A DNA stretch of 53,493 nt from positions 1 through 53,493 of the forward strand of contig CAJWNQ010000011.1 in assembly GCA_913043905.1 (NCBI GenBank). Direction: 5' to 3'. This document shows, in pieces, positions 14,646-16,081 of this stretch. The stretch is from an uncultured Paracoccaceae bacterium (GTDB lineage: Bacteria > Pseudomonadota > Alphaproteobacteria > Rhodobacterales > Rhodobacteraceae). The position numbers were made by a program, and so were the translations under genes. A model generated the notes under the pieces. That model saw nothing but the letters and a program-made list of their open reading frames with translations. It was not told where the DNA came from and ran no database searches. Each line of letters opens with the position of its first letter. Within the stretch, counting starts at the first letter, position 1.

Positions 14646-15131
14646 TTAAGCTTCAATTGCCCTAGATTTTGTTACTTTTTGCGTATTTTTTCCATTAATC
14701 ATGGATGCATTCGCTATTTCAATTTTGCGTGGCTTCAAGGCTTCAGGAACTTCCCGCAACAAATCGATGTGTAAAAGTCCTTCACTTGATTCTGCCCCGA
14801 CAGGTCGAACATGATCAGCTAGTTGAAAGCGTTTTTCAAACGAACGCTGCGCAATACCTCTATGTAAATAGGTAATTTGATCATCTGCAATTTCTGCTTT
14901 TTTTGCAGCAATTACTAACTGGCCTTCACGCATTTCTACGTTTAATTCATCTTCACTAAAACCAGAGACTGCTACCGTAATTCGGTATTTGTCTTCACCA
15001 GCTTTTTCAATGTTATATGGGGGATAAGTATTTGTTCCAGTATCCGCTGTCAGAGCTATATCTAGCATACTGGCTAAGCGGTCAAAACCTACTGTTGAAC
15101 GGTATAATGGTGTAAAATCATAGTTACGCAT
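14646..15131 (-). CDS. Small heat-shock protein (Hsp20/IbpA type)
   Basis: ATP-independent holdase chaperone of the cytosol. The start at 15131 gives 161 residues beginning MRNYDFTPLYRSTVGFDRL, the usual IbpA N-terminus, and has AGGA 7 bases upstream. The open frame runs 49 codons further upstream, but a sigma-70-like promoter lies inside that extension, so it is leader rather than protein. The alpha-crystallin domain runs from about residue 35 to 130 (YRITVAVSGFSEDELNVEMREG; YLHRGIAQRSFEKRFQLADHV), and the C-terminal RKIEI is the I-x-I oligomerisation motif. The leader can sequester the SD, suggesting thermosensor control. Confidence 0.92.
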   Translation of the reverse strand: MRNYDFTPLYRSTVGFDRLASMLDIALTADTGTNTYPPYNIEKAGEDKYRITVAVSGFSEDELNVEMREGQLVIAAKKAEIADDQITYLHRGIAQRSFEKRFQLADHVRPVGAESSEGLLHIDLLREVPEALKPRKIEIANASMINGKNTQKVTKSRAIEA

Positions 15132-15218
15132 GTGCATATCCTTTTCTAAGCGATACGTTTTTAAAGGCCTTCCATATGGACAGACCCGGGTAGTTACGGA
15201 CCCCATTTGGGCATCCGT
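15132..15218 (-). promoter_or_regulatory. Candidate RNA thermometer (ROSE-like) in the hsp20 leader
   Basis: Read on the minus strand. The first hairpin has arms ACGGA/TCCGT with inner CCC/GGG (15196-15218) and starts about where transcription should begin. The last hairpin pairs GTCCATAT (15174-15181) with ATATGCAC (15132-15139), seven of eight bases, and CCTTT (15163-15167) with AAAGG (15141-15145 or one base shifted), which is the Shine-Dalgarno sequence. A 6-base bulge separates the two helices. Imperfect pairing over the SD directly before an hsp20 start codon is the hallmark of ROSE elements, although the strict ROSE consensus is not obvious. Confidence 0.55.
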
Positions 15219-15223
15219 TTTAC

Positions 15224-15253
15224 AGTATACTGCAACTTCTTTCAGTTTGGCAA
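15224..15253 (-). promoter_or_regulatory. Sigma-70-like promoter of hsp20
   Basis: TTGCCA (15248-15253 complement) and TATACT (15224-15229 complement) are separated by 18 bases. Predicted start of RNA is near 15217, giving a leader of about 86 bases. I saw no clear sigma-32 consensus. Confidence 0.5.
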
Positions 15254-15310
15254 GTAATTTTGAAAAATTAATATTCACATTAACTTTACCTAGATTTATT
15301 CTCCTATGAA

Positions 15311-16081
15311 TTAATTACCAGTAAAAAAATTTAGCTTTTCCATTTGAGCAATACTTGAAACCTTTCTTAATTGGCCCAATAATTCGCTTAATGGTTCCTC
15401 AAGAGACACACCTAAAGATACATTCCTTCCATTCACTTTACCCTTAGCAGACACAATTGAAGTAATCATAAGTTCACCATTTATCTCTGTAAAAATAGGT
15501 GCCCCAGATGCCCCAAAATCTACTACACAATTTGAAACAATAATTTGATTTTTAACAGATAAAATATTACATTTTTCCTCAATTAAAGGCGCTTCTAATT
15601 TTTTTTCTACATAAGAGATTAGACTTATTTTTTGCCCAATAGCAGGAGATCTGCTCAACAGAAAGGGGCGAATTCCATTAGCATTCATGGGGGTCAGAAG
15701 TTCTATTAGTGCTATGTCAGTCGACACAAGCTCATCACTTACAGTGTGAGAATATTCATAGCTTTTATGTACAAAGATATGATGTGCTTGGCCAAGAGCA
15801 GATGCCCCTTCATTACCCCAGCCTGCTAAAAACTGTATCATATTTGGTGTATAAACTTTTCCAGTAGACCTATTTACAACACAGTGTGCAGCAGTCAACA
15901 CATGGCTATCTGAAATCAATACACCCGAACAAAGCCGATCAAGGTCACCACCACTTACATTCAACCGCCCAATGCCCGACCATGCCGCTGATTGGCCCAC
16001 GGTCATTAACTTACGCAAAACAGTATCTGCATGTGCGCATTGACCAAAAAAAATAGTAATAATTATGCAAAGAAATTTCAT
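15311..16081 (-). CDS. Secreted trypsin-like serine protease
   Basis: A 256-residue exported protease of the chymotrypsin fold (S1). A signal peptide covers about residues 1-18 (ends CAHA-D). The triad is visible: His66 in LTAAHCV, Asp122 in STDIALIEL and Ser192 in DFGASGAPIF. Several Cys (51, 67, 171, 185) could form periplasmic disulfides. The oxyanion motif is GASGAP rather than the textbook GDSGGP, which occurs in many bacterial V8-like or trypsin-like proteases. It lies between hsp20 and glcF on the same strand. A link to envelope protein quality control is only a guess from its location. Confidence 0.83.
   Translation of the reverse strand: MKFLCIIITIFFGQCAHADTVLRKLMTVGQSAAWSGIGRLNVSGGDLDRLCSGVLISDSHVLTAAHCVVNRSTGKVYTPNMIQFLAGWGNEGASALGQAHHIFVHKSYEYSHTVSDELVSTDIALIELLTPMNANGIRPFLLSRSPAIGQKISLISYVEKKLEAPLIEEKCNILSVKNQIIVSNCVVDFGASGAPIFTEINGELMITSIVSAKGKVNGRNVSLGVSLEEPLSELLGQLRKVSSIAQMEKLNFFTGN

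Follow-up and report, generated by a model that had tools for sequence, protein, structure and literature searches.

A probable ROSE-type RNA thermometer with three bulged-G hairpins in the hsp20 leader of an uncultured Paracoccaceae bacterium

In the available passages of PMC12857270, PMC9450479 and PMC11182007, ROSE-like RNA thermometers are defined by a U(U/C)GCU sequence that faces the Shine-Dalgarno (SD) sequence within the last hairpin. ROSE1 has four hairpins according to the excerpted text of PMC9450479, and the short ROSE of Pseudomonas ibpA, of ~62 bases, has two, a stable first hairpin and an SD hairpin that melts and carries UYGCU (PMC3669281, in the portion available). The Rfam database describes a rhizobial element, ROSE (RF00435; e.g. 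Bradyrhizobium hspA), and an enterobacterial one located before ibpA, ROSE_2 (RF01832). The closest printed precedent that we found for the locus described here is Nautella sp. R11, a member of the Roseobacter clade with ROSE-like motifs upstream of ibpA and hspD (PMC3230580); the gene is the same and the family is probably the same, but in the available part of that report the motifs are given in a sentence, with neither structure nor covariation.

The window analysed here is a stretch of 53,493 nucleotides (contig CAJWNQ010000011.1). On its minus strand, the hsp20 leader, running from 15132 to approximately 15217 (~86 bases), comprises three hairpins, H1, H2 and H3 (Table 1). An earlier reading, made from the sequence alone, had proposed a leader of about this length, a hairpin near +1 (15196-15218, here H1 at 15217-15197) and an AAAGG preceding an ATG at 15131, and these three points held on the minus strand. 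In the last hairpin, UCGCU (15153-15149) lies opposite AAGGA, with G15151 predicted to bulge out opposite the SD; the anti-SD arm of H3 that pairs with the SD is UAUCGCUU (15155-15148). Two further hairpins, H1 and H2, lie upstream, and the leader belongs to a small heat-shock gene, as indicated by Hsp20 profile matches. The architecture differs from the four hairpins of ROSE1. It shares with the Pseudomonas ibpA element UYGCU, a first hairpin expected to be stable and an SD hairpin expected to melt. A FourU thermometer also hides the SD in a hairpin; it was discarded for this leader, whose anti-SD arm has no run of four consecutive U paired with the SD.

Table 1. Positions of the hsp20 gene, its leader hairpins and associated signals in the window.
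Feature	Positions	Strand	Basis or remark
Probable RpoH-type promoter, CTTGCC (15254-15249), 16 bases, CAGTAT (15232-15227)	15227..15254	-	overlaps TTGCCA/TATACT
In-frame extension from GTG 15278, read as leader plus promoter, not protein	15132..15278	-	
Hairpin H1, CGGAU(G)CCC-aaau-GGGGUCCG, bulged G 15212	15197..15217	-	starts approximately at the expected +1; sequence and covariation
Hairpin H2, GGUCU(G)UCC-auau-GGAAGGCC, bulged G 15181	15166..15186	-	covariation; part most like Rfam ROSE_2
Hairpin H3, ROSE core UAUC(G)CUU-agaa-AAGGAUA over the SD region, bulged G 15151	15137..15155	-	covariation
SD sequence AAGGA, 7 bases 5' of ATG	15139..15143	-	sequence
hsp20, IbpA-like small heat-shock protein, MRNYDFTPLYRSTVGFD...	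14646..15131	-	ATG 15131-15129; Pfam HSP20 (PF00011) 1.2e-15

We consider it very probable that this leader is a ROSE-type RNA thermometer placed before hsp20, a structure established by comparison and a function assigned by analogy with other ROSE elements. The evidence in hand consists of the structure itself, its covariation, its place before hsp20 and its match to a recognised ROSE, and it upholds the sequence-only reading, which had suggested an RNA thermometer and named ROSE as one of two kinds.

Of 61 genomes, 52 encode an Hsp20 (paralogues counted), and the three hairpins recur across the hsp20 leaders of relatives listed among the loci up to L139. A covariance model (R1) derived from seven close leaders, including that of the window (alignment A4), gave matches (E <=0.1) in the window and, among the 51 loci L001-L051, in all 50 other than L047; a second R1 match, on the plus strand of L021 (E 0.14), was taken as chance. 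A second model (R2) was built from 41 leaders (alignment A5; 40 distinct), taken from 41 of these 51 loci. The ten omitted loci (L038, L040, L042 and L045-L051) are among 14 from outside the family; nine of them had matched R1 at E values from 9e-9 to 0.1 and the tenth is L047. In the A5 row of L032 the model skipped H3, although the core is present in the sequence. Alignment A6 comprised 79 named leaders, none of them identical to an A5 leader and with the closest pair 0.86 alike; to judge from their titles, the named loci belong mostly to Rhodobacteraceae or their genera, six (L117, L123, L130, L133, L137 and L139) belong to other groups, and L061, L110 and L113 are assigned just to Alphaproteobacteria.

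Since alignments A5 to A7 were fitted to the model, the pair counts lean to it; with this bearing, the ROSE pairs were formed in 98.8% of cells in the 41 leaders, with double changes in 13 of the 23 pairs (43 double-change cells vs 6.2 in shuffled alignments) and a covariation score of 0.286, compared with 0.163 when shuffled and at most 0.096 when slid. The corresponding values for the 79 named leaders were 96.1% of cells, 19 of 23 pairs, 281 double-change cells vs 70.3, and a score of 0.500 vs 0.189 shuffled and at most 0.123 slid. For H3 alone, double changes occurred in three of seven pairs among the 41 leaders and in four of seven among the 79, two and three pairs, respectively, being invariant. 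The three-hairpin structure is therefore far beyond chance by conservation and covariation, and not by folding energy.

No Rfam family matched at its gathering score anywhere in the window. A search with the Rfam ROSE models had been put forward as a check on the thermometer, and its outcome was divided: when 15080-15330 was searched permissively, ROSE_2 ranked first, aligned at full length to the leader and extending just inside the coding region (15125-15198, minus strand, E 0.0044), but its 23.9 bits did not reach the gathering score of 65 bits, and ROSE (gathering score 45 bits) was absent from the matches listed there up to E 10. The remaining four matches of the permissive search had E values above 3. 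ROSE_2 was likewise detected at the hsp20 start in 6 of 20 loci, with 28.3-31.8 bits (E <=0.1), and a search of 20 of the 80 named loci (E <=1) returned one ROSE_2 and one ROSE, both under the cut-off. Among 100 family genomes, none exceeded the RF01832 cut-off, with a single weak match and a positive E. coli control; none exceeded that of RF00435 either, an absence that is not proved for the family because the 14 control genomes were likewise without a match. Rfam annotation at cut-off would therefore miss the element in this family.

The Salmonella ibpA leader, which scores 95.2 bits with ROSE_2, was matched by R2, all three hairpins lying in register, with a score of 37.5 bits and an E value of 1.3e-9 for 908 bases. 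The likeness to ROSE_2 includes the same gene, an H3 with UCGCU and a bulged G, and an H2 whose sequence, CUGUCCAU..UGGAAGG, is nearly letter for letter that of the window; H1 of Salmonella ibpA has a bulged G too, located 5' of the start of the Rfam model. On the other hand, in the window alignment the two outermost pairs that the model has around H3 are non-standard, and ROSE_2 is enterobacterial whereas the host of the window is alphaproteobacterial. The rhizobial ROSE, as aligned in L062, resembles the window in the bulged G of H1 before CC..GG and in the UYGCU core, and differs in that its H2 lacks a bulged G. A weaker R2 match (19.9 bits) was obtained in the Salmonella ibpB leader (L192, 698-778), covering H1 and the core with most of H2 absent from the alignment, perhaps a two-hairpin form.

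At 37 C the leader with some coding sequence (102 bases) folds with -25.6 kcal/mol (z -0.93), and 32 of 200 shuffles fold as well; folding energy was thus rejected as proof of structure. In the nearest-neighbour model, the probability that the SD of the window leader is unpaired fell from 0.48 (20 C) through 0.35 (37 C) to 0.32 (50 C), a trend opposite to that of a melting thermometer; in a 122-base piece with more coding sequence it fell from 0.71 (10 C) to 0.34 (42 C) and then rose to 0.45 (55 C). Across 119 leaders the median rose only from 0.046 (20 C) to 0.165 (50 C). Non-canonical pairs have been reported in ROSE elements (available text of PMC9450479), and nearest-neighbour energy models do not contain such pairs; the modelled trend is not counted in favour of a thermometer. 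The isolated H3 of the window has -2.3 kcal/mol at 37 C vs a median of -3.2 for 120 leaders, of which 26, among them the window, are no stronger than this; the H3 of the window's clade is weaker than the median.

In the folding model H3 competes at low temperature with a hairpin over the start codon, ACGUAU (15158-15153) with AUGCGU (15131-15126). In the minimum-energy fold of the 122-base piece this hairpin replaces H3 up to 37 C and H3 appears from 42 C; on the window leader, too, it has the minimum energy up to 37 C, although the centroid at that temperature is H3. Such folds would suit a switch in which the start codon, and not the SD, is hidden in the cold and H3 forms just on warming. 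We regard this as improbable, as the hairpin is paired in 79.4% of cells vs 78.5% when shuffled (123 of 500 shuffles as high), its score is 0.155 vs 0.139 (87 of 500 as high), one of its arms consists of the codons ATG-CGT, kept for the protein, and its competitor H3 covaries. With pairing and score this near to shuffled values, the start-codon hairpin was set aside as the main switch.

Under the favoured ROSE reading, the RpoH-like promoter would start a message with ~86 leader bases, which would fold into H1, H2 and H3, the UCGCU of the anti-SD arm pairing with AAGGA around the bulged G. Because H3 covers AAGGA, we propose that ribosomes bind poorly at normal temperature; upon heating, H3 would loosen and translation of hsp20 from the ATG at 15131 would rise, and H1 and H2 would remain folded. 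The melting, its temperature range, the effect on translation and the stability of H1 and H2 are suggested by the literature on other ROSE elements. The hairpins might instead chiefly protect the message or set its half-life, H3 being conserved merely because the SD lies inside it; in favour of this idea, H1 is located at what should be the 5' end, a position in which a stem-loop can stabilize the message, as discussed for Pseudomonas ibpA (PMC3669281, in the part available). Nevertheless, the anti-SD arm lies outside the SD and is nearly invariant, since four of the five UYGCU columns are identical in 79/79 named leaders and the fifth is C or T, and the UYGCU arm is the hallmark of tested ROSE elements in the passages available from PMC9450479, PMC12857270 and PMC11342760. 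We therefore judge message protection as the chief role to be slightly less probable still than the start-codon switch.

On the minus strand the hsp20 frame is open upstream of the ATG at 15131 as far as a GTG at 15278, making a frame of 210 aa (15278-14646), as had been noted from the sequence, and the proposal that the N-terminal extension is leader was sustained. The NCBIfam models IbpA (NF008013) and IbpB align from residue 50 of this frame, the second Met of MHMRNYDF, with scores below their equivalog cut-offs, and since they begin at MRNYDF we place the hsp20 start at ATG 15131-15129. A stop in the hsp20 frame lies within the leader in 29 of the 41 leaders (the window, itself without such a stop, being counted) and in 47 of the 79 named ones, and an open frame with a start codon 5' of H1 occurs in only 4 of the 41 (one of them the window) and in 17 of the 79; in these counts the start codon of four of the 41 leaders was placed by text search near the end of the model match. 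Moreover, leader lengths differ by one base between close relatives, and the region is taken up by covarying RNA structure. A genuine N-terminal protein extension, for which the open frame and its GTG could be cited, is thus very improbable, and an annotation using the long frame would be wrong, the downstream ATG being the start. A trypsin-like protease gene (Trypsin 5.6e-12; 15311-16081) lies directly upstream on the same strand, separated from the hsp20 ATG by a gap of 179 bases.

Another alternative, in which CCUUU pairs with the AAAGG SD and GUCCAUAU pairs with AUAUGCAC, was the pairing put forward by the sequence-only reading and is hardly tenable: the short stretches are complementary in the window save for one C-C mismatch (GTCCATAT vs ATATGCAC), but the CCUUU:AAAGG pairs have an ensemble probability of 0.00 at all nine temperatures from 10 to 55 C, and the structure breaks H2, which the GGCC of the stretch closes instead, and H3, both of which covary far more strongly (98.8% of cells and 0.286 for the ROSE pairs vs 59.8% and 0.147 on the same 41-leader alignment). 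The covariation of this structure was slight: the pairs formed were near the shuffled level (59.8 vs 58.6%, reached by 21 of 500 shuffles; double changes in 4 pairs vs 3.3, 204 of 500), and the score was slightly above it (0.147 vs 0.127; 3 of 500 as high), an excess that columns shared with H2 and H3 may explain. On ensemble folding and covariation this pairing was rejected, the SD pairing with the anti-SD arm of H3 instead.

Regarding the promoter, the proposed sigma-70-like elements, TTGCCA (15253-15248) and TATACT (15229-15224) separated by 18 bases, are present; what did not stand is the housekeeping sigma-70 as the best reading. A pattern consisting of CTTG, a gap of 15-20 bases from the six-base -35, and a CCATAT-like hexamer matching in at least 4 of 6 positions was found in 111 of the 119 leaders whose upstream sequence was long enough, compared with a mean of 3.85 and a maximum of 9 in shuffles. 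The -35 was mostly CTTGAA (89) and the spacing 17 (64) or 16 (41) bases; the window, with CTTGCC-16-CAGTAT, matches 4 of 6 at -10, the lowest score counted. The distance from the end of the -10 to the start of the model match was 7 bases in 13 of the 14 leaders listed and 8 in the other. We take the CTTG-N16/17-CCANAT-like pattern to be the RpoH-type motif, and on these motifs the promoter is probably RpoH-like rather than sigma-70. As the hexamers of the window fit sigma-70 too, both RpoH and sigma-70 may read it.

R2 detected the element at E 0.01 in 90 of 100 genomes of the family, probably Rhodobacteraceae, one per genus (85 of 95 when the five used for model building are excluded), and in 79 of the 80 named loci, the missed one, L113, having only 23 bases upstream. 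It also matched in 74 of 190 genomes in a search of the class and in 44 of 299 in a search of the phylum (E 0.001), 10 of the latter outside the class; the fetched matches from outside the class (7 of the 10) align across the whole R2 model, L214 with a poor H2 part. Of the best 52 loci from the own-genome, family and class searches, 49, including that of the window, have an Hsp20 start at the match end, all at E <=0.01, and the other three are weak own-genome matches. In the best 26 new loci of the phylum search the Hsp20 start was present in 26/26, within ~12 bases of the match end. These data provide as a resource 120 aligned leaders (41 + 79) together with a model able to detect it in 90 of the 100 genera sampled. 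The search for further copies in the genome of the window gave weak R2 matches only (21.8, 15.1 and 14.5 bits). The first of them (L141, 1192-1104, minus strand, G000:C4; E 0.025) terminates at an ATG that opens a small ORF (MRVITIFLLLVPMPAFAHWGH...) and is possibly a chance match. Near the Salipiger bermudensis hsp20 (L081, 2328-2423), Rfam identified Cis2_sRNA (RF02645) with 51.3 bits vs a cut-off of 50.

With a Roseobacter-clade precedent in print (PMC3230580, in the portion available), this is a known kind of thermometer, ordinary and well supported, with one unexplained detail that is repeated: each of H1, H2 and H3 has one unpaired G on its 5' arm. For each of the three hairpins the bulged G is present in 40 of 41 leaders, the remainder having a gap or T, and in the named set in 76 of 79 for H1, 72 of 74 for H2 (5 gaps) and 79 of 79 for H3. 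When 120 leaders were folded separately to their minimum energy, 301 single-base bulges were found on a 5' arm 2-4 pairs from the loop, of which 297 were G. Such a bulge occurred in three hairpins in 76 leaders, in two in 28, in one in 13 and in none in 3; among 600 shuffled leaders, 13 had one such hairpin and none had more, and of 99 such bulges there 13 were G. This count is independent of the alignment columns, although the leaders themselves had been delimited with the model.

The feature is implicit in the known models, since the bulge is visible in the Rfam consensus for H1 of RF00435 and H2 of RF01832. In the available passages of PMC9450479, PMC12857270, PMC3669281, PMC11342760 and PMC11182007, to which two original ROSE papers do not belong, the G is discussed for the SD hairpin alone. 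In P. putida ibpA, deleting the bulged G increased heat induction, whereas the deletion together with a U-to-C change abolished expression (PMC3669281). The role of the 5' hairpins of ROSE is described in print, in the text available, as not fully understood, and one printed passage, also seen as an excerpt, speaks against a sensing role of upstream ROSE hairpins in general.

A tentative reading, to which we give somewhat less than even weight, is that the alpha- and gammaproteobacterial ROSE leaders are one homologous three-hairpin RNA in which the same module, a stem whose 5' arm carries one bulged G at a distance of 2-4 pairs from the loop, is present three times, the upstream hairpins having a selected feature of their own and the Rfam models each being partial. 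In support of this idea, the G is held while the surrounding pairs change with compensation, which would imply that the upstream hairpins carry a selected feature. If this were true, that feature of H1 and H2 might be a non-canonical G contact that they share, a weak point that has been tuned, or a binding site, and the two Rfam ROSE models, whose cut-offs are passed in 0 of 100 family genomes, would each cover just part of the RNA. A bulged G common to the three hairpins makes the role of the 5' hairpins testable by single-base changes.

It is also worth mentioning that the genome of the window possesses a second hsp20, located outside the window (L052, G000:C1:176693-177450), whose leader is shorter. 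It has a hairpin resembling H1, GGTT(G)CC..GGGACC, and, directly 5' of the start, a core with the sequence AGTC(G)CTT..AAGGGCT, which together probably make a two-hairpin ROSE, closer to the Pseudomonas ibpA form as described in the portion available of PMC3669281. Upstream of these hairpins lies a promoter-like site, CTTGAGA..ATCATAT, and L053-L057 and L059 look similar by eye.
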